Origin: an uncultured Sphingomonas sp.
Lineage (GTDB): Bacteria; Pseudomonadota; Alphaproteobacteria; Sphingomonadales; Sphingomonadaceae
DNA: 16,000 nucleotides
Direction: 5' to 3'
NCBI GenBank assembly: GCA_946886845.1
Contig: CAMPJH010000018.1
Coordinates: 1 to 16,000 of the forward strand
Shown here: positions 2,978 through 12,567 of the stretch, in pieces
How the letters are laid out: each line of letters starts with the position of its first letter
Position numbering within the stretch: the stretch's first letter is position 1
Made by a program: the position numbers and the translations under genes
Notes under the pieces: model-generated
The model's input: the letters and a program-made list of their open reading frames with translations, nothing else
Told to the model about the DNA's origin: nothing
The model's database searches: none

Positions 2978-3006
2978 TCCCATTCTGTTCCGCCGGGGGA
3001 ATGACT

Positions 3007-4350
3007 ATGGACGCCGCCTTGTTCGTCGCTGCTGGAGTTGCCGGAATGGCGCTCGGGGCGGTGATCGCCTGGCTCTACGCGAGCCGCGAGGCTGCCGCCG
3101 CCAAGCAAACCGTGGAAACGCTCCGGCTCCAGCTCGACGGCGTCGTCAGCGAGCGGGATGAGGCGCGAGCCAATAGTGACACCGCCTCCCGCGAGCTTGC
3201 CGCGCTGCAGGCCGACGCTCGCAATTTCGAGCAGCGGATGAAGGACCTCACCGAATCCAAGGACGCCCTCGTCGCCCAGTTTCGGGCGATCGGCGACCAG
3301 CTGCTGGAGAAAGCGCACAAAGATTTTCTGGAGAAAGCCGGCGAGCGCTTTTCCAAGGCGGACGAGCAAAGCCAGACGAATCTGAAGGCGCTGTTGCAGC
3401 CGGTCGAAGCCACCTTGAAGCGCTACGAAGAGGGGCTGCAGCGCGTCGAGAAGGAGCGCGTCGACCAATATGCCGGGCTTCGCGAAGCCGTCGAGCTGGT
3501 CCGCACGGGGCAGGGGCAAGTCCGCGACGAGACCCGCAACCTGGTCAACGCGCTGAGGGCTTCACCCAAGGCGCGGGGCCGCTGGGGCGAGCAGAGCTTG
3601 AAGAACGTGCTCGAGCAGGCAGGCCTCAGCCCCTACGCCGATTTTCTCACCGAGGTTTCGGTCGACGGTGAGGACGGCAAGCTTCGCCCCGACGTGATCG
3701 TCCGGCTGCCCGGTGGGCGCAAGCTGGTGATCGACGCCAAATGCTCGTTGAACAGCTATCTCGACGCCTGCGACGAGGTCGACGACGACAAGCGCGACGC
3801 CTGTTTCCGGGCGCATGTCGCCTCCATCCGCAACCATGCGCAGCAATTGGGGTCGAAGGCTTATTGGGCTCAGTTCGACGATTCCGCCGACTATGTGATC
3901 ATGTACATTCCGGGCGAGCATTTCCTCACGGCGGCGCTGGAGCGGGACGATGGCCTTTGGGACTGGGCGTTCGAGCGCAAGGTGCTGCTCGCGACCCCAA
4001 CCAACCTGGTCGCAATCGCCAAGACCGTTGCCAGCATCTGGCGGCAGGAACGGCTGGCCGAAGCTGCCCAGGAAATCGCCAACCTCGGCAAGGAATTGCA
4101 CTCGCGGCTGGCGACGATGAACGAGCATATGACTCGGATGGGCAAGAATCTGTCGACCGCCAACACGGCCTACAATCAGATGGTCGGTAGCTTCGAGAGC
4201 CAGGTGCTGACCCAGGCACGGCGGTTCGAGACCTTGGGCGCGGGCAGCGCCAAGGACCTCGATTCGCCGCCGATGGTCGAGGCCAGCCCGCGGCCGCTGA
4301 CGAAGATCGCGGGCAAGTCCGAAGAACCGCCGCAGCTCGCGGCGGAGTAG
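3007..4350 (+). CDS. rmuC: DNA recombination protein RmuC
   Basis: RmuC-family protein, linked genetically to limiting DNA inversions and rearrangements; the family carries a nuclease-like fold. The 447-residue product has one N-terminal membrane helix (about residues 4-24, LFVAAGVAGMALGAVIAWLY). A long charged coiled-coil region follows to about residue 180, and then the conserved core: SPKARGRWGEQSLKNVLEQ (about 186-204), RPDVIVRLPGGRKLVIDAKC (about 227-246) and MYIPGEHF. I chose ATG 3007 because GGGGGA at 2995-3000 is correctly spaced for it but directly abuts the other ATG at 3001. Its stop abuts the convergent META-domain gene with no base between them. Confidence 0.94.
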   Translation: MDAALFVAAGVAGMALGAVIAWLYASREAAAAKQTVETLRLQLDGVVSERDEARANSDTASRELAALQADARNFEQRMKDLTESKDALVAQFRAIGDQLLEKAHKDFLEKAGERFSKADEQSQTNLKALLQPVEATLKRYEEGLQRVEKERVDQYAGLREAVELVRTGQGQVRDETRNLVNALRASPKARGRWGEQSLKNVLEQAGLSPYADFLTEVSVDGEDGKLRPDVIVRLPGGRKLVIDAKCSLNSYLDACDEVDDDKRDACFRAHVASIRNHAQQLGSKAYWAQFDDSADYVIMYIPGEHFLTAALERDDGLWDWAFERKVLLATPTNLVAIAKTVASIWRQERLAEAAQEIANLGKELHSRLATMNEHMTRMGKNLSTANTAYNQMVGSFESQVLTQARRFETLGAGSAKDLDSPPMVEASPRPLTKIAGKSEEPPQLAAE

Positions 4351-4762: not shown

Positions 4763-5104
4763 CTATAGTCCGCCGCAGCCCTCGTGCGGCCTGCCGTCGA
4801 CCGAGACTTGGACCCGGTCCGGGTAAGTCCCTGTGTGGCCGAGCGCGCACTGGGCGTGGACGATGTTCACGTTGATCCGCGGCGTCTGGTAGATTTCGCC
4901 GGCAATGCCGACGATCACCGCCGGCTTCGGCTGGCGGATCGGCTGCCCGCCCGCCGGAAGGAAGGTGACGTGCTGGTCGTCGATCACCAGGTGCCAGGCG
5001 CCGTTGGCGCCGACCGCGTGATAGGGCGCCGGCGGCGGCGGCGGGTGCGGCAGGCAGCCGGCGAGCAGCACGGGCGCAATCACGAGGCTCAGACGCTTCA
5101 GCAC
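4763..5104 (-). CDS. Small proline-rich lipoprotein, unknown function
   Basis: A 113-residue product read from GTG 5104. The start is chosen because it gives a clean lipoprotein signal, MLKRLSLVIAPVLLAGC, with lipidated Cys17. A proline run (PHPPPPPAP) and a beta-rich domain follow. The end, CALGHTGTYPDRVQVSVDG followed by a GCGG motif, resembles the C-terminal pattern of small envelope proteins often found beside or fused to META domains. That resemblance is from memory and not a firm family call. It sits 35 nt after the trmH stop and 10 nt before the META gene, on the same strand. No strong ribosome binding site is visible ahead of the GTG. Confidence 0.7.
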   Translation of the reverse strand: MLKRLSLVIAPVLLAGCLPHPPPPPAPYHAVGANGAWHLVIDDQHVTFLPAGGQPIRQPKPAVIVGIAGEIYQTPRINVNIVHAQCALGHTGTYPDRVQVSVDGRPHEGCGGL

Positions 5105-5139
5105 TTGCAGACAAAGCGGCTCGGGCGGAGCGGTTCCAA

Positions 5140-5937
5140 TCAGCGCCAGCTGGCCTTGACCGCGAAGGCCATCACCGCCGCGGCGATGGCGGCATTGAGG
5201 CTGTCGGCGCGACCCGCCATCGCGATCTTCACCAGCAGGTCGCATTCGGCTTCGTAGGAGGGCGGTAGCCCCTGCTGCTCATTGCCGATCAGCAGGAAGC
5301 AGGGCTGCTTGTATTCGGCCTCCAGATAGTCCTGCTCGGTCTTCAGGCTGGTCCCGGCCAGCTGTCCCGGTCCGGAGCGGAGCCAGGCGATGAAATCGTC
5401 CCAGCGCGCGGTCGCAATTTGCTGCGTGAACACCGCGCCCATCGACGCCCGTACCGCCTCGACCGAAAAGGGGTCGGCGCAATCGTCGATCAGGATCAGC
5501 CCGCCGGCCCCGACCGCGTCGCCGGTGCGAAGGATGGTGCCGATGTTGCCCGGGTCGCGCAGGGCCTGGGCGCAAATCCACAAAGGCGAAGCGTTGCGCT
5601 CGATTCGGTCCAGCGAGGCGTCCGGCTGGCGGTAGGCGCCGAGCAGCATCTGCGGATTGTCCTTGCCGCTCATCTTCGAAAGGATGTCGGCGGTGGTCTC
5701 GATCGCCTCGCCGCCGGCGGCTTCGGTCGCGGCGATGATCTCGGCGGCGAGCGGGTGCTTGGCACCCTCGGCGGAAAAGGCGATGATCTCGGGCAACCGG
5801 CCGCTGTCGCGCGCCTCGGCGATGATCCTCAGGCCCTCGGCGAGGAACAGGCCTTCGGTACGCCGCGCCTTCTTGTCGCGCAGCGATCGCAGCCGCTTGA
5901 CGGTCGCATTGGAGAAAGCGGTTATCTGGCGGGGCAT
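5140..5937 (-). CDS. SpoU/TrmH-family RNA 2'-O-methyltransferase
   Basis: Transfers methyl from S-adenosylmethionine to a ribose 2'-OH in rRNA or tRNA; the exact target cannot be read from sequence. The 265-residue protein has an N-terminal substrate-binding domain (FLAEGLRI near 31-38) and a trefoil-knot SPOUT domain. Its three motifs are ALRDPGNIGTILRTGDAVGA (125-144, Asn131 and Arg137), LIGNEQQGLPP (216-226) and IAMAGRADSLNAA (238-250). ATG 5937 is used; a GTG directly before it is in frame. The first 21 codons (5875-5937) are repeated almost exactly at 8204-8266 behind ptsH, which indicates this gene once followed ptsH directly. The one difference makes residue 11 Ala here and Pro in the stub. 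The gene is followed by two lipoprotein genes on the same strand. Confidence 0.93.
   Translation of the reverse strand: MPRQITAFSNATVKRLRSLRDKKARRTEGLFLAEGLRIIAEARDSGRLPEIIAFSAEGAKHPLAAEIIAATEAAGGEAIETTADILSKMSGKDNPQMLLGAYRQPDASLDRIERNASPLWICAQALRDPGNIGTILRTGDAVGAGGLILIDDCADPFSVEAVRASMGAVFTQQIATARWDDFIAWLRSGPGQLAGTSLKTEQDYLEAEYKQPCFLLIGNEQQGLPPSYEAECDLLVKIAMAGRADSLNAAIAAAVMAFAVKASWR
5875..5937. repeat. Direct repeat, copy 1 (5' end of intact trmH)
   Basis: 63 bp covering codons 1-21 of the intact trmH. It matches 8204-8266 at 62 of 63 positions in the same orientation, offset 2,329 bp; the single difference is C5907 against G8236. Similarity stops at once on both sides. The two copies bracket the hydrolase segment. 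Confidence 0.95.
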
Positions 5938-6038
5938 CACGTCACTCTAGCGGACATGCGAGCCGGAATGAACGCGGTCGGCTTTTCCCAATTTGCGGAT
6001 TTTCCTAACGTTGAACCCGAATCGCGGCTTGCACATCC

Positions 6039-6068
6039 GCTACAAATGTAGCACGCTACAAATGTAGC
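6039..6068 (+). promoter_or_regulatory. Two tandem BlaI/MecI/CopY-type operator dyads
   Basis: GCTACAAATGTAGC occurs at 6039-6052 and again at 6055-6068, centres 16 bp apart. Each is a near-perfect palindrome containing TACAnnTGTA, the half-site layout recognised by winged-helix repressors of the BlaI/MecI/CopY family. They lie about 35 bp before the 51-codon ORF and about 100 bp upstream of trmH on the other strand, so one repressor could control both directions. A TTGCAC at 6029-6034 may be a -35 but no well-spaced -10 was found. No repressor or BlaR1-type sensor gene is in the window; it would have to act from elsewhere. Confidence 0.6.
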
Positions 6069-6102
6069 CGGCATAACACGCCGAACAAAGGAAAATGCGT
6101 CA

Positions 6103-6258
6103 ATGACCAGCCTTATTGGGAAGACGCTCGCTCAAACGGCGCCGGCCAGTGCTGAGCCATATCGGCCTGCAGCCCTTGCAAATGACGTGCGGCGCCAGCG
6201 CCCGTTCCAGGCGCCACAAAGCGTCGAAGACGTGGCAGTCGAGGTGCGCGATGCGTGA
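6103..6258 (+). CDS. Small ORF (51 aa) overlapping the hydrolase start
   Basis: Starts at ATG 6103, ten bases after AAAGGA (6087-6092), and ends at TGA 6256-6258, overlapping by 8 nt the ATG (6251) of the hydrolase. It begins MTSLIGKTLAQTAPASAEPY and ends VEDVAVEVRDA. The product is polar, with no signal peptide, membrane segment or cysteine, and I do not recognise it. The position right after the operator dyads and the overlap suggest either a real small protein or a leader whose translation is coupled to the hydrolase. It may also be a chance reading frame. Confidence 0.4.
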   Translation: MTSLIGKTLAQTAPASAEPYRPAALANDVRRQRPFQAPQSVEDVAVEVRDA

Positions 6259-8023
6259 AAGGCGAGGAACCAGCGGTTGGAAAGCATGGGTGGCGTCAGG
6301 GGCTCGGCTGTGCGCGCTTATCCGCGCTCTCTTCCGACCTTGGAGCCTTTTCCTGGCGGTCGCTCTACCCGCTGCTGCCGTTGCTCAGCCGGTGTCATTC
6401 GCCGGCGTCTATGGTGGTGGCTTCGGTGCGCCCGACACCTTTGTCTACACGAGGATCGAGCTCCAAGGAGGGACGTCTCTTACCGGTAAAATCGAACAGC
6501 CATTCGACCGCACCGACTCGCCCCCCATCACGGAGCTTGAGCGACAGGGATCGCGGCTCCGCTTCCAGGCGGATGGTCTGCGCTTCGATCTCAACCGTAC
6601 GGCGACTGGCTTACAAGGTACGGTGCAGCCGCCCGGAGGCGTGCCCCAGCCGGCGTATTTCGCGCTTCGGCCGGGTTCGCCGCCAGTGGACCTGTTGGCA
6701 CGCTATGAGGGGACATATGCGCTGGGTGGCGGGCGGCTGCTTACCCTGTCGCGGGGCAGCGACAGCCCCGTCTTGTATTACCTGGAACTGCCGTCCGGGC
6801 GCACCGGCTTTCTGTACAACCTCTCCAACACCGAATTCATCGCTGGTCCATGCATGTACTGCGCCGGGCCCGCGCGACTCCGGGTTCGCCTGCTGCCGGA
6901 GACCGACGAAAAGCCGGAGCCGCGGATTTCCGTCAGCCTAGACCCGCGTCAGGGCGGAGGAGCCCAGCGCGTTCGAGTAACGATCAGCGGCCGCACAATC
7001 TATGCGCCTAGAATCGAGACGCATTCCGAAGAGGAAATCAGTTTCTTCAGCAAGGATGGCACGCAACTGGCCGGTTCGCTGCTATTGCCCTCCGGAAAGG
7101 GGCCGCACTCCGCGGTAGTCTTCGCCCACGGGTCAAACGCGCAAAATCGCAACGGCTTTTTCGGTAATATCCGCTTCATTGCAGAAGCCTATGCGCGATC
7201 CGGAATTGCCGCGCTCATCTTCGACAAGCGCGGGACCGGCCGATCGAAGGGTGATTGGAAAACTGCAAATTTTGAAATTCTGGCGGACGATGTCGCCGCT
7301 GGCGTCGAGTTTCTCAGGACAAGAGCCGAAATCAAGGCTGATCGAATCGGCCTCACAGGCAGCAGCCAAGCGGGCTGGATCATGCCTTTGGCGGCGATGC
7401 GCGTGCCCAACATCCGGTTCATCCAGATGCGCTCATCTTCGCCTAGGAACGTTCGCGAGGAAGGGCGCCGTCAGCTCGTTCTGATGATGGAAGCCGAACG
7501 ATATCCTCGATCCGAGATCCAACGTGCGCTCGACATCCGCGACATGATGGATGACTATGCCGTCACTGGTCGGAATTGGGAGCAGCTGGAGGCCGCGGCA
7601 AAGCAGGTCGAGAACGAATATTGGATGACCCAGTTCATCGGCGGATTGCCGGCGAAGGACTCGCCGGATCATGCCTGGCTCCGCAAGGCATTCTCTTATG
7701 ACATGACGGCGCCCTTCCGGAACTTCAGGGGCGCTTGGCAAGCGATATATGGGGCTAGCGACATCGTGATATCTGTTCCCGAGGCACGGGCATGGTTCGA
7801 AGATGGCCTTCGTTACGGCCGCTCAAATGACGTGACGATCGAGGTCGTCCCGAACGCCGACCACAATTATTATGAAACCAAGACGGGTCTCGATCATCGC
7901 GAGTTGCCGAGATACAGCCGTTACGCACCCGGCATTTTTGACAAGATCACCCGGTGGGCGAACGAACGGATGCGCAACACATTTACCCGCCCACTCTCTC
8001 CCGGCAAAACCCCGTCACGTTGA
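6251..8023 (+). CDS. Secreted alpha/beta-hydrolase with N-terminal beta domain
   Basis: 590 residues from ATG 6251, which has GAGG (6241-6244) at good spacing; GTG 6290 would shorten a long n-region and is an alternative. The signal peptide ends near AAAVAQ (cut about 45/46), so the enzyme is exported. Residues about 50-275 form a beta-rich domain I do not recognise. An alpha/beta-hydrolase domain follows: oxyanion region FAHGSNAQNRNG, DKRGTGRS, nucleophile Ser372 in TGSSQAGW, probable acid Asp504 (GASDIV) and His538 (NADHNYY). The elbow reads GSSQAG, where the usual GxSxG has Ala in place of its last Gly, followed by Gly. Likely an esterase or peptidase; the substrate is unknown. Codon choice is less GC-biased than in the neighbours, and it lies in the putative inserted segment downstream of BlaI-type operators. 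Confidence 0.88.
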   Translation: MRERRGTSGWKAWVASGARLCALIRALFRPWSLFLAVALPAAAVAQPVSFAGVYGGGFGAPDTFVYTRIELQGGTSLTGKIEQPFDRTDSPPITELERQGSRLRFQADGLRFDLNRTATGLQGTVQPPGGVPQPAYFALRPGSPPVDLLARYEGTYALGGGRLLTLSRGSDSPVLYYLELPSGRTGFLYNLSNTEFIAGPCMYCAGPARLRVRLLPETDEKPEPRISVSLDPRQGGGAQRVRVTISGRTIYAPRIETHSEEEISFFSKDGTQLAGSLLLPSGKGPHSAVVFAHGSNAQNRNGFFGNIRFIAEAYARSGIAALIFDKRGTGRSKGDWKTANFEILADDVAAGVEFLRTRAEIKADRIGLTGSSQAGWIMPLAAMRVPNIRFIQMRSSSPRNVREEGRRQLVLMMEAERYPRSEIQRALDIRDMMDDYAVTGRNWEQLEAAAKQVENEYWMTQFIGGLPAKDSPDHAWLRKAFSYDMTAPFRNFRGAWQAIYGASDIVISVPEARAWFEDGLRYGRSNDVTIEVVPNADHNYYETKTGLDHRELPRYSRYAPGIFDKITRWANERMRNTFTRPLSPGKTPSR

Positions 8024-8203
8024 GCGTGGATCCGACAAGCTTGGGTTCAGAGCCGCAATAAGCTTCGCGCTTTGTCACGCCGGGCTATTTTCGACAGGAT
8101 CGTGGGATGGGCGGCGCGGCGTCTGCGTTGAGCATTCGGACGCGCCGCCGCTCTCTCGATCAATCACAATTATCTAACCGTTTTGCGAACCGCCCGGATG
8201 CGC
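8024..8203. other. Non-coding tail of the inserted segment
   Basis: 180 bp between the hydrolase stop and the trmH stub. It holds the hairpin described separately. Otherwise I see no convincing gene, RNA or recombinase remnant. The last bases (8174-8203) are read only as the out-of-frame tail of the stub ORF, which stops at TAG 8174-8176 on the minus strand. Confidence 0.5.
8110..8149. terminator. GC-rich hairpin after the hydrolase, possible terminator
   Basis: GGCGGCGC (8110-8117) pairs with GCGCCGCC (8142-8149), and GTC (8121-8123) with GAC (8139-8141) across a 3-nt bulge, with a 15-nt loop. It sits 86 bp past the hydrolase stop, between genes transcribed towards each other. There is no T-run on either side, so intrinsic termination is uncertain. 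Confidence 0.25.
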
Positions 8204-8266
8204 GTCGCGCAGCGATCGCAGCCGCTTGACGGTCGGATTGGAGAAAGCGGTTATCTGGCGGGGCAT
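8174..8266 (-). pseudogene. Truncated stub of trmH behind ptsH
   Basis: An ORF of 30 codons starting at ATG 8266, which overlaps the ptsH stop as TAATG. The first 21 residues (MPRQITAFSNPTVKRLRSLR plus Asp) are the start of the SpoU/TrmH methyltransferase found intact at 5140-5937. After codon 21 the frame runs into unrelated sequence (AHPGGSQNG) and stops at 8174. Pro11 in the stub, where the intact gene has Ala, fits what I remember of homologues (FSNPTVKR), so the stub may be the original resident start. It cannot encode an enzyme but may still be translated by coupling to ptsH. Confidence 0.85.
8204..8266. repeat. Direct repeat, copy 2 (trmH stub)
   Basis: 63 bp that match 5875-5937 at 62 of 63 positions. 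It begins at the trmH ATG and ends after codon 21. The edge next to ptsH is inside the TAATG stop/start overlap. Confidence 0.95.
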
Positions 8267-8544
8267 TATCCCGCTTCCTCTCCGAATCCGCTTTCGACCA
8301 GATCGACAAGCCTGGCGAGCGCCTCGTCGGCGCCGTCGCCTTCGGCGTGGATGGTGATGCAATCGCCGGTTGCGGCGCCGAGCATCATCAGGCCCATGAT
8401 CGATGTGCCGCAGACGCGGTTCGAATCCTTTTCCACCTCGATCTTCGACTGCAGCTCGCTGGCGAGGTTGACGAACTGCGCGCTGGCACGCGCGTGGAGC
8501 CCGCGCCGGTTGACTATCCGGACCTCGCGGCTGACTGCGCTCAA
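8266..8544 (-). CDS. ptsH: Phosphocarrier protein HPr
   Basis: 92-residue HPr that carries a phosphoryl group between PTS proteins. The phospho-histidine motif is NRRGLHARASAQF with His17. The regulatory serine region is CGTSIMGLMML with Ser48, the site expected to be phosphorylated by HprK encoded three genes upstream. The start is TTG at 8544, overlapping the EIIA stop as TTGA; a TTG start is unusual but the N-terminus (MSAVSREVRIVNRRG) fits the family. The stop TAA overlaps the ATG of the trmH stub. No EI or sugar permease is nearby, so this is a regulatory PTS. Confidence 0.95.
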   Translation of the reverse strand: MSAVSREVRIVNRRGLHARASAQFVNLASELQSKIEVEKDSNRVCGTSIMGLMMLGAATGDCITIHAEGDGADEALARLVDLVESGFGEEAG

Positions 8545-8948
8545 GCGGCGGCTTCCCCGAGGATCTCGGACGCCACGGAGATATATTTGCGGCCGGCCTC
8601 GCGGGCGGCGGCCACCGCCGCATGAACACCCATCACCTTGCGGGCGCCCTCGAGGCGGATCAGCATCGGCAGGTTGACGCCGGCGATGACCTCGATGTTC
8701 TCGCTCTTCATCAGGCTGATCGCCAGGTTCGACGGGGTGCCGCCGAACAGGTCGGTTAGGATGATCACGCCGTTGCCGCGATCGACCGCCTGGATCGCGG
8801 CGGCGATATCCTTGCGGCGCTCTTCCATGTCGTCGTCGGGACCGATGCAGACGGCTTCGATCGCCTCCTGCGGTCCAACCACATGCTCCATCGCGGTGAT
8901 GAACTCGGCCGCAAGCCGGCCGTGAGTCACCAGCACCAGTCCAATCAT
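8541..8948 (-). CDS. PTS EIIA component, mannose (Man) family
   Basis: 135 residues, a lone EIIA(Man)-type domain. The phosphorylated histidine is His9 in the N-terminal LVLVTHGRLA, and the second family motif is IILTDLFGGTPSNLA (about 66-80). There is no attached IIB and no transporter gene, as in other alphaproteobacteria where this protein is thought to signal rather than move sugar. Its ATG overlaps the rapZ stop as ATGA, and its own stop overlaps the ptsH TTG start, so all three are translationally coupled. Confidence 0.93.
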   Translation of the reverse strand: MIGLVLVTHGRLAAEFITAMEHVVGPQEAIEAVCIGPDDDMEERRKDIAAAIQAVDRGNGVIILTDLFGGTPSNLAISLMKSENIEVIAGVNLPMLIRLEGARKVMGVHAAVAAAREAGRKYISVASEILGEAAA

Positions 8949-9874
8949 TCGTTCAACTCGCTTCCACTCTCGGTGCCGGGTTCGGGTGCGGCGGTGTCTT
9001 CGATCCTGTCATTCGGCGCCAGCGCCAGGTCGCGGTGCCGGATGTTGGGAGAGAACCCCGCCGCTCGCAACCGTTCCGCCATCTCCACTGCCGCGGTGAC
9101 CGACCGATGTCGGCCCCCAGTGCAGCCAAAGGCGACGGTCAAATAATTTTTGCCCGCGGCCCAGTAGCGAGGAATCCACTCTCTGAGAAGCGATTCGATG
9201 CGGTCCATCGAATCCGCCCACGCCGGGTCCCCGGCGACATAGTCCCGCACCGGCTGGTCGTTGCCGGTCAACGGCCGAAGCTCGTCGATCCAGTACGGAT
9301 TGGTGAGGAAGCGCAAGTCGAATACGAGGTCGGCGGTGCGCGAGATGCCGTGGCCGAAGCCGAAGGAAACCAGCGTCAGCACCGGCTCCCGCTCGATCCC
9401 GAAGCGGCGGCGAAGCTCCTCGCGAAGCTCGACCGGCGTCAGGTCGGTCGTGTCGAGCACGCTGTCGGCCACGGTCCGAAGCGGCGCCAGAAGGCTGCGC
9501 TCGCGGGCGATTCCGTCCTCGGCGGGGCGGTCGGAAGCAAGCGGATGGCGCCGTCGGGTCTTGTCGAAGCGGCGAAGCAGCTCGGCGCTCGAGCAGTCGA
9601 GGAACAGGATCTCGGGGTCGACCCCCTCGACCGATCGAATCAGCTCCGACACGGTGGCCGGCTCGAACCCGCGGCTTCGAACGTCCATGCCAACCGCGAC
9701 CGGCAAGGTCCGGCACTGGTTGCCGGCATGGACGAAGGCCTCGAGCAGGTCGGCGGGGAGGTTGTCGACAGTGTCCCAGCCCATGTCCTCGAGCGCATCG
9801 AGGACGCTGGACTTGCCCGCCCCCGACATCCCGGTGACGAGCAGGAGCCGCGGATTGCGCGGCCGCGAGGTCAT
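8945..9874 (-). CDS. rapZ: RNase adapter / nucleotide-binding protein RapZ (YvcJ family)
   Basis: 309-residue RapZ/YvcJ protein. It has an N-terminal P-loop kinase-like domain with Walker A GMSGAGKSS (15-23), the conserved VDNLP (36-40) and a second strand ILFLDCS (89-95). The C-terminal domain carries SFGFGHG (170-176) and FGCTGGRHRSV (249-259). In enterobacteria RapZ brings small RNA GlmZ to RNase E; in alphaproteobacteria the role is unsettled, and its conserved place between hprK and the PTS genes suggests a link to phosphate signalling. Both ends overlap neighbours by ATGA. Length is slightly above the usual 285 or so because of a short acidic tail (PEPGTESGSELNE). Confidence 0.95.
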   Translation of the reverse strand: MTSRPRNPRLLLVTGMSGAGKSSVLDALEDMGWDTVDNLPADLLEAFVHAGNQCRTLPVAVGMDVRSRGFEPATVSELIRSVEGVDPEILFLDCSSAELLRRFDKTRRRHPLASDRPAEDGIARERSLLAPLRTVADSVLDTTDLTPVELREELRRRFGIEREPVLTLVSFGFGHGISRTADLVFDLRFLTNPYWIDELRPLTGNDQPVRDYVAGDPAWADSMDRIESLLREWIPRYWAAGKNYLTVAFGCTGGRHRSVTAAVEMAERLRAAGFSPNIRHRDLALAPNDRIEDTAAPEPGTESGSELNE

Positions 9875-10314
9875 TGGACCTTAAGCCCGAGGCGGTCGAG
9901 CGCGAGCGCCGCCTTCGACGACGCCGACGCGGTCATCGCATCGATCGTGACGAGCGGAAGCGCGACGCCGAGAATCGGACGTTCGCGGCTGTCCTCCGGA
10001 AGCCGCTGGATGTCGCCGGTCAGCTCGACGATCAGGGCGATCGGGACGTCGCTGGCCGCTTCCATTTCGATAATGCCGATTCCGCGGATTTCCAGCTTGC
10101 CGGTGATCTGCGGCGGGGCCGAAGCGAGCAGCCGATCGCCGTCGCGGCGAACGATCGTGCGATCGTCGCTGACCAGGACGAAGCCGCGGTCGATGAGGCG
10201 AAGCGCGAGGTCCGACTTGCCCGACCCCGACGGGCCGGTGATCAGCACGGCGCGGCCGTCGATGGCGACGGTGCTGGCGTGAACGGACTCTCCCGAAAGG
10301 CGCTGGGCGGTCAT
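9871..10314 (-). CDS. hprK: HPr kinase/phosphorylase, short form
   Basis: 147 residues, equal to the catalytic domain only; the Bacillus-type N-terminal domain is absent, which is normal for alphaproteobacteria. It has His12 before the core, Walker A GPSGSGKS (27-34), the acidic pair Asp50-Asp51 in VSDDRT, and the HprK signature LEIRGIGI (74-81). It phosphorylates or dephosphorylates HPr on the regulatory serine (Ser48 of ptsH here). Its start overlaps the chvG stop and its stop overlaps the rapZ start, both as ATGA. Confidence 0.94.
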   Translation of the reverse strand: MTAQRLSGESVHASTVAIDGRAVLITGPSGSGKSDLALRLIDRGFVLVSDDRTIVRRDGDRLLASAPPQITGKLEIRGIGIIEMEAASDVPIALIVELTGDIQRLPEDSRERPILGVALPLVTIDAMTASASSKAALALDRLGLKVQ

Positions 10315-11891
10315 TGCTGCTCCACCGCCGGAAGCGAGATGATGAAGCGGGCGCCGGACGGCGCGTCGTCGCGGTCGTAGACGCTGATTTCCCCGTCGTG
10401 CCCTTCGACGATAGCCTTGGCGATGGCCAGGCCCAAGCCCGAGTGGCGGCCGAAATTCTCGGTCTCTGGCCGTATCGAGTGGAAGCGGTTGAAGATCGCT
10501 TCACGCGCCTCGGGCGGAACTCCCGGGCCTTCGTCGTCAATCCGGATGAGGACGTCACTGCCGACCCTCGAGGCGGCGATCTCGACCAGCCCGCCGGGCG
10601 GCGAGAAGCTGACCGCATTGTCGATGATATTGTCGAGCGCCCGGGCCAGTCGGTTGGGATCGCCCATGACCACGGCGCTGTCCTTGCGCGGCCGGGCATA
10701 AGCCAGCCGGGCGTCGCCCTTGTCGCGCCGCGCACCCCAGCTGGCGACGAGCTGCTCGATGAGCGGGCCGAGGTCGACGACCTCGAATCGCGCGCGCGCA
10801 AGCTCGGCGTCGGTCCGCGCCGCCTCGCTGATGTCGTTGATCAGCCGGTCGAGCCGGCGAACATCGTCGCGGGCGACCTCGGTCAGCCTGGCGCGCAGCT
10901 TGTCGTCCTGGACGTTCTCCAGGCCGTCGATGGCCGAGCGCAATGACGCCAGCGGATTCTTGAGCTCATGCGTGACGTCGGCGGCAAAGGCCTCGATATT
11001 GTCGATCCGTTGGCGGAGCGATTGGCTCATGTCGGCAACCGAGCGCGCGAGCAGGCCGATCTCGTCTCGCCGCGACGGCAGCCGCGGCACCCGAACCTCG
11101 CGGGCTCGGCCGAGCCGGACGCGGTGCGCGGCAAGGGCGATCCGGCGGAGCGGCCGGACGATGGTCCTGGCGAGGAACAGCGACAGCAGCACCGATATCA
11201 GGATCGCGACCCCCATCGCGATCGCCAGCCCGGCGCGCTGGCTGCGCATCGACCGGGTGAGGCTGCGCTCGTTGGACGTGACGAGCAGGGCTCCGCCGTC
11301 GACCGGCGCGGCCGCCGAGAGGACCGGAGTCAGGTCCGGCGCGGTGCGGATCACGTTGGTGACTTCGTTGGCTCGTTGGGCCTGCCGGGCTTCGGGCCAA
11401 GCGGCGATGACATCCGTTGCCGGCTCTACGAAATCGGGCGCATATTCGGCGCCGACCAGCGCATTGAAGCCGCGATCGAGCGCGCGCGCGGCATCTTTCA
11501 TCCAGCCCTCGGCAGCAGGGTCGCGCAATCGGTATGTGGGGCCGGTCAAGGCCCAGCTGTCGGCGACCAGTCGGCCATCGGGGCCATAAAGGCGGATCCG
11601 GCTTCGGGTCGATTCGCCGATCGCGGCGATTGCCCGGGCGCGCTGCTCTGGCGGGACCGAGCGGGCGATGATGGCGCTGATCTCGGCCTCTCGCACCGTC
11701 CGCTGGACCCGCTCCTTGCTCAGCTTGTTGCGGAAGGCATCGAGATAGACGACTCCCAGCGCGAGGATCAGCACCGCGAAGATGTTGACGGCGAGAATTC
11801 GCCAGGTGAGCGTCCACCGGGCGGTCCACGGCCGCGGCGGGCGCCGCCGGCGCCGCCGCTTATTGATCGTCGAAGCGGTAACCGACGCCAT
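10311..11891 (-). CDS. chvG: Sensor histidine kinase ChvG (ExoS)
   Basis: 526-residue membrane kinase. The order is an arginine-rich cytoplasmic start ([11 protein letters not shown]), TM1 about 31-50, a periplasmic sensor about 51-218, TM2 about 220-240, HAMP about 241-293, then the kinase core. Phospho-accepting His308 lies in [14 protein letters not shown]. The N box is [14 protein letters not shown] (421-434), G1 [19 protein letters not shown] and G2 GLGLAIA (486-492). ATG 11891 is used; it lies inside the end of chvI (32-nt overlap), and no start codon exists between the chvI stop and TM1. In rhizobia and Agrobacterium ChvG responds to acid and envelope stress, with ExoR as inhibitor; exoR is not in this window. 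Confidence 0.93.
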
Positions 11892-12567
11892 AAAGCGTCT
11901 CGATGGAATCGAAGGCCGGGTCGACCGCCCGGAACTTGCGGCGGATTCGCTTGATGTGGCTGTCGATGGTGCGGTCGTCGACGTAGACATCTTCCTGATA
12001 AGCGACGTCGAGCAGCTGGTTGCGGTTCTTGACCACCCCCGGGCGCTGCGCAAGCGCTTCCAGGATCAGGAATTCGGTGACGGTCAGGGTGACGTCCTTG
12101 CCGTCCCACTTCACCTTGTGCCGGGCCGGGTCCATCGACAGCCGGCCGCGAACTAGCAGCTCCGGTTCGGTCTCGGCGGGTGCGGCGGCCTCGCTCTTGG
12201 CAAGCTCCTGGCGGCGAAGGATAGCGCGGATCCGGGCCAGCAGCAGGCGCTGCGAGAAGGGCTTGGAAATATAATCGTCGGCGCCCATCGCCAGGCCGAG
12301 CGCCTCGTCGAGCTCGTCGTCCTTGGAAGTCAGGAAAATGACCGGCATCGGGCTGAACTCGCGAAGCCGCCGAAGCAGCTCCATTCCGTCCATCTGCGGC
12401 ATCTTGATGTCGAACACGCCAAGGTCCGGCGGGTTTTCGGCGAACGCCTTCAGGGCCGTCACCCCGTCGGTATAGACGCGCGTGACGAACCCCTCGGACT
12501 GGAGGGCGATCGACACCGAGGTCAGGATGTTGCGGTCGTCGTCGACCAGCGCGATCATGTGGCTCAT
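11860..12567 (-). CDS. chvI: Response regulator ChvI, OmpR family
   Basis: 235-residue OmpR-type regulator and partner of ChvG. The receiver domain (about 4-118) has the acidic pocket DDD at 9-11, phospho-acceptor Asp53 in [10 protein letters not shown], Thr80 and Lys102. The winged-helix DNA-binding domain (about 135-233) ends with [18 protein letters not shown] and [16 protein letters not shown] 12567 ([11 protein letters not shown]) is preferred over a longer reading to 12612, whose extra residues are not typical; ATG 12558 is also possible. It heads the six-gene operon and is divergent from pckA, as in rhizobia, where the ChvI system and pckA are neighbours. Confidence 0.94.

Follow-up and report, generated by a model that had tools for sequence, protein, structure and literature searches.

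A foreign hydrolase gene appears to have entered the start of a trmH-like gene in an uncultured Sphingomonas sp., leaving a duplicated gene start

Introduction

A 16,000-nucleotide (nt) stretch of an uncultured Sphingomonas sp. (contig CAMPJH010000018.1; hereafter the window, whose positions serve as coordinates) carries a hydrolase gene between ptsH and a trmH-like gene, bracketed by two copies of the first 21 codons of trmH. The trmH start appears to have been the recent landing place of a foreign enzyme gene; a broken copy of the start remains, and the gene itself still has an intact one. Homology-facilitated illegitimate recombination is expected to join incoming DNA homologously on one side and illegitimately on the other, and to duplicate part of the recipient gene. 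Gene starts at dusA and prfC can be restored by the elements that integrate there, and in Escherichia coli the 5′ coding sequence supplied by the dusA element diverges significantly from the native one, according to excerpts of the source (PMC8409611). The insertion sequences IS1549 and IS1634 leave direct repeats of 8–514 bp, for which the 2008 paper, in its excerpted text, knew no model (PMC2266710). The literature searched held nothing usable on islands at this site or on bacterial insertions with short duplications.

The duplicated gene start and the empty site

The repeat search recovers a 63-nt direct repeat at 5875–5937 and 8204–8266, in the same orientation and identical at 62 of 63 positions, in agreement with the original prediction made from the window alone. 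By base composition alone, 16 kb should hold about 1.5e-10 exact 32-mer pairs, so a chance origin of this repeat is ruled out. On the minus strand, the identity begins exactly at the ATG, runs through codon 21, and then ends; the stub formed by the second copy continues for nine codons past the repeat to a stop, giving an open reading frame (ORF) of 30 amino acids in total, and its ATG overlaps the ptsH stop codon. The features concerned are as follows.

5140–5937, minus strand: intact trmH-like gene (SpoU family; PF00588 and PF22435; below every NCBIfam cut-off), start codon at 5935–5937
5875–5937, minus strand: repeat copy 1 (repeat search), codons 1–21 of intact trmH, with Ala at codon 11
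5938–8203, strand not applicable: inserted segment of 2,266 bp, bounds taken from the empty site of congener G022 (locus L133)
8204–8266, minus strand: repeat copy 2 (repeat search), the trmH stub, codons 1–21, with Pro at codon 11
8266–8544, minus strand: ptsH (HPr; PF00381), native upstream neighbor of trmH, its stop overlapping the stub ATG
8541–9874, minus strand: EIIA-man and RapZ genes, the conserved context upstream of ptsH (domain search and loci of relatives)

For comparison, the trmH protein was scanned against genome contigs and the best 80 of 323 loci were kept; stretches from 45 same-genus genomes were added, giving 125 loci with 119 distinct trmH sequences, among which conspecific strains were not included. 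The gene was found in 69 of 71 genus genomes, 45 through the added stretches and 24 through the earlier set of 80 loci (20 by handle and 4 by coordinate match). Nearly all of these best 80 of 323 loci have HPr, EIIA-man, and RapZ upstream of trmH, and ptsH ends no more than 200 nt upstream in 112 of the 119 distinct sequences. The gap between ptsH stop and trmH start measures 0 or less in 39, 1–60 nt in 61, 61–200 nt in 12, and more than 200 nt in four (327, 407, 468, and 1,850 nt), with HPr not seen in three; these three comprise a contig end with 23 bases resembling the HPr tail (L006) and two loci with other genes upstream of trmH (L036 and L157). No hydrolase occupies the gap in any of the 125 loci (E-value 1e-6), and none holds a second copy of its own trmH start, while the window, scanned in the same way as a positive control, yields both copies.

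The congener G022 aligns to window positions 8204–12255 (78.4% identity) and 4965–5936 (78.9%), and the two aligned stretches overlap in G022 by 62 bp, which is the repeat; hence the 2,266 bp at 5938–8203 plus one repeat copy are extra in the window. The closest trmH among the loci examined (L009, 84.5% nucleotide identity) is overlapped by the ptsH end, as on the stub side of the window. This is a true insertion between ptsH and trmH, at a site that is usually empty. The prediction of an insertion at the trmH 5′ end, with relatives in which ptsH directly precedes trmH, is thus borne out; the hydrolase is not a constant neighbor of trmH among the relatives, nor is trmH always apart from ptsH. 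The anticipated alternative cargo at the same duplicated site was found in none of the 125 loci; the four longer gaps hold other sequence and no duplication of the trmH start. One gap (L044, 9427–10016) contains, by eye, two small ORFs resembling a VapB–VapC pair, again without trmH duplication, and those of L010, L020, L141, and L151 contain sequences that look by eye like palindromic repeats, perhaps REP-type elements.

The intact gene encodes a SpoU-family RNA methyltransferase with an MRM3-like domain; NCBIfam equivalogs all remain below their cut-offs, so trmH serves here as a loose label. The plus-strand hydrolase gene is flanked by minus-strand genes, with META and trmH on one side and HPr, EIIA-man, RapZ, and ORFs like HprK and ChvG on the other. 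Guanine-plus-cytosine (GC) content comes to 0.601 in the insert and to 0.677 and 0.676 in its two flanks, in line with the lower-GC plus-strand module originally described. The minus-strand run into which it was said to fall is present around the insert and stops at rmuC (3001–4350, plus strand). Among the ORFs near trmH that resemble HprK, ChvG, and pckA, only pckA exceeds its NCBIfam cut-off. Farther out, a minus-strand ORF at 2502–2948 matches DUF326.

The hydrolase cargo

The insert contains a single clear gene, which encodes an alpha/beta hydrolase with weak NCBIfam matches only; its solved relatives are remote, the best being MHETase MHT043-5 (E-value 2e-8).

6251–8023, plus strand: alpha/beta hydrolase (S15/CocE-like; PF02129), likely start ATG at 6251
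8068–8131, plus strand: frameshifted vestige of a C-terminus of the first hydrolase subfamily (translations compared by eye with the C-termini of P0017–P0019)
6039–6068, plus strand: two copies of GCTACAAATGTAGC (6039–6052 and 6055–6068; exact motif search), a probable BlaI-type operator

At an E-value of 1e-40, the hydrolase occurs in one of the 71 genus genomes (G022). At 1e-60, with at most three candidates scored per genome, it was found in none of 397 family genomes, in a search run without a positive control, and in one of 396 order genomes, which is again G022. Weak matches in 14 of 20 close genomes (27–36% identity, E-value 3e-25 or weaker) were not counted as relatives of the cargo. 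The hydrolase of G022 is located away from trmH, beyond an hppD-adjacent stretch common to many congeners, and no long repeats flank it. The insert is 90.2% identical to this G022 hydrolase over 1,072 bp, which exceeds the 78–79% identity of the trmH surroundings and suggests that the cargo was transferred within the genus. Judged by composition (GC 0.60 versus 0.68) and by identity to G022 (90% versus 78–79%), the hydrolase cargo is foreign. No match to the insert was found in phage or plasmid records, and neither the hydrolase nor trmH has relatives in viral contigs.

Compared block by block, the hydrolase is a chimera of two hydrolase subfamilies: residues 31–210 resemble P0017–P0019 (73–97% per 30-residue block), and residues 241–590 resemble P0002 and P0004 (73–100% per 30-residue block). 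The same mosaic structure is present in P0001, which has 75 member sequences and is 99% identical to the hydrolase across 93% of the query; the chimera therefore also exists outside the window. For a donor locus of the first subfamily, P0019 was compared with 26 genomes from the genus to which L036 belongs and had no match at 1e-60.

The two copies of GCTACAAATGTAGC before the hydrolase, a motif that we take to be of the BlaI type, also occur twice before the hydrolase of G022, and each of the five genus genomes searched has it, as one or two perfect matches, ahead of a BlaI-family gene. The gene that follows the BlaI-family gene encodes a BlaR1-type M56 peptidase in the one genome tested (G002). 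Four of these five genomes (G001–G004) have the BlaI-family gene and no hydrolase at 1e-40, so the repressor is present independently of the cargo; a resident BlaI-type repressor may bind the copies before the hydrolase, and a BlaI/M56 regulon that includes the hydrolase is possible. GCTACAAATGTAGC also stands before other genes, among them two with DUF2807 and one with DUF5694; outside the window, its sites include 1420–1451 in L222 and 1501–1532 in L239.

Two alleles and a promoter-like insert end

Neither repeat copy matches any other of the 125 loci at more than 55 of 63 positions, against 62 of 63 between the copies, which places the origin of both in the species of the window. Ten TrmH sequences of 265 amino acids are 98–99% identical to that of the window (protein search, best 120 of 6,130). 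Residue 11, the one position at which the stub (Pro) departs from the intact copy (Ala), is Ala in four of the ten and Pro in six, and shows all four combinations with four of the five other informative sites when the intact copy of the window is included. This variation is as expected from an old polymorphism in a recombining population that carries both alleles, and the stub and the intact copy probably descend from two chromosomes of one species. A 374-residue TrmH relative (P0092) has its N-terminal part repeated internally, joined at a Leu-Arg-Asp motif like the end of the window stub; its contig measures 2,135 bp and it may be an assembly artefact.

The end of the insert that adjoins the intact gene carries a further feature.

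5947–5950, minus strand: CTAG at −13 of the intact trmH ATG, promoter-like by motif comparison with relatives

CTAG is rare in the window (8 observed, whereas base composition predicts about 51). Of the 38 distinct trmH upstream regions whose ptsH–trmH gap exceeds 25 nt, 18 have a CTA/TTAG-type motif within −18 to −8, every one of them at −11 to −14, and one has it at −26 to −19. The insert end therefore looks like a genuine gene start, with a promoter-like sequence in register with the intact trmH ATG, and the CTAG at −13 may be a promoter of the leaderless type. A scan for the sigma-70 consensus gave no promoter at the insert end before intact trmH. In these bacteria, the CTA/TTAG-type motif at −11 to −14 may serve leaderless promoters as their −10 element.

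Candidate mechanisms

The insertion is clean, with no sign of any known kind of mobile element. Nine ORFs of at least 80 amino acids overlap the insert, and their comparison with PHROGs gave no recombinase and one hit, to an esterase/lipase; Pfam, for seven of the nine, gave only hydrolase domains and no recombinase or transposase, so that the recombinase-free character first ascribed to the insert holds. Terminal inverted repeats are lacking in its outer 80 nt (top alignment score 7, below the 95% level of 9 for shuffled sequence). An insertion sequence was rejected on the lack of a transposase and of these inverted repeats, and an integron attC site on possible core motifs that stand, by eye only, in the wrong order.

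The origin tentatively favored here, with somewhat less than even confidence, is one-sided homologous recombination with illegitimate joining. A hydrolase unit moving horizontally within the genus would have been inserted between ptsH and trmH by way of incoming DNA from a chromosome of the same species already arranged as hydrolase, promoter, and trmH. Homologous recombination inside trmH, one-sided or unequal, would have been accompanied by an illegitimate joint at codon 21 of the recipient gene; the recipient start (Pro-11) would have become the stub beside ptsH, and the full gene would have received the donor start (Ala-11) and its promoter. Such an event would be functionally like the gene-start replacement of SXT and dusA elements, yet would need no dedicated recombinase. 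In the window, the 63-bp stub has stayed with ptsH and the full gene starts at the insert boundary. One-sided recombination is supported by the empty sites, the conspecific-like copies, the Ala/Pro polymorphism, the CTAG at −13, and the lack of a recombinase or terminal repeats, and exchange with such a conspecific chromosome would account for the boundary at the ATG, the position of the CTAG, and the segregating mismatch. Several points weigh against it. The presumed donor, with the hydrolase next to trmH and no stub, was seen in none of the 125 loci, which do not include conspecifics. The CTA motif is missing nearby in 20 of the 38 comparable upstream regions. The Ala/Pro contrast is seen at the protein level only, where recurrent change is possible, and could also stem from later gene conversion or independent mutation.

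The lack of a recombinase and terminal repeats, and the uniqueness of the event among the 125 loci, would also suit a plain target duplication, in which a staggered break or template switch in trmH codons 1–21 of one chromosome took up a piece of hydrolase DNA and repair doubled the 63 bp. No special donor is then required, but the boundary at the ATG, the CTAG at exactly −13, and the mismatch at a segregating TrmH site are left as three coincidences, with the promoter-like end put down to chance, later selection, or joining at the ATG of another gene; this is somewhat unlikely. All three are accounted for by site-specific integration of a minimal or decayed element, or of a cassette moved by a helper, which used the trmH 5′ end as attachment site and brought a start and promoter. 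A direct repeat of this length where a gene begins, the preserved frame, and the promoter-like end fit such an element, an element from a conspecific host would explain the Ala/Pro contrast too, and analogous restoration at dusA and prfC is described in excerpts of PMC8409611. Set against this are an insert without recombinase or inverted repeats at its ends and without counterpart in phage or plasmid records, the lack of any other duplicated trmH start in the 125 loci, and a related hydrolase that G022 carries elsewhere with no long repeats beside it, so that integration of this kind is judged unlikely.

An assembly artefact, in which contigs of two strains were joined, one ending at trmH codon 21 and the other carrying hydrolase and trmH, would put two alleles within one sequence. 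A simple k-mer duplication would yield identical copies, and graph assemblers require overlapping reads at a joint; an artefact is regarded as quite improbable. Similarly little credence is given to a self-healing cassette without recombinase, a 2.3-kb unit with a trmH start, an outward promoter, and cargo under the operator of a resident BlaI-type repressor, which would exit as a circle via its 63-bp repeats; ordinary homologous recombination would return it to a conspecific trmH, and the host would keep its gene.

Comparison with known systems

The locus is a sharply bounded case in which a foreign gene enters an operon inside a housekeeping gene and the gene survives: the trmH start is doubled, one copy dies, and the other gains promoter-like sequence. 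The cargo adds domain shuffling between subfamilies and a putative operator for a repressor that each of the five tested genus genomes has. Should the recombinase-free route hold, an integrase need not be assumed wherever gene starts carry repeats resembling attachment sites.

As in the SXT/R391 integrative and conjugative elements at prfC and the SGI1-like elements at dusA, the insertion lies at a gene 5′ end, the frame is restored, and a new promoter may be supplied; as in site-specific integrative elements generally, direct repeats stand at both ends within the 5′ end of the target gene, here 63 bp long and candidate attachment sites. The replacement 5′ end of the original prediction is retained in the promoter-like end in register with the intact start, and its assignment to an SXT-type element is not, since there is neither a recombinase in the insert nor a second occupant in the 125 loci. 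Unlike the SXT and dusA elements, the insert is without integrase, and unlike the diverged 5′ coding sequence of the dusA element, as given in the excerpted text of PMC8409611, its two copies agree at 62 of 63 positions. Long direct repeats at the insert ends are also left by insertions of the IS1549/IS1634 type, according to excerpts of PMC2266710, from which the window differs in that its insert lacks a transposase and, within the outer 80 nt, terminal inverted repeats. While a defining feature of each is missing, the locus works like the gene-start replacement of SXT and dusA elements and resembles the IS1549/IS1634 insertions; and while the donor arrangement was not seen in the 125 loci, the outcome at the locus is like that expected of homology-facilitated illegitimate recombination.

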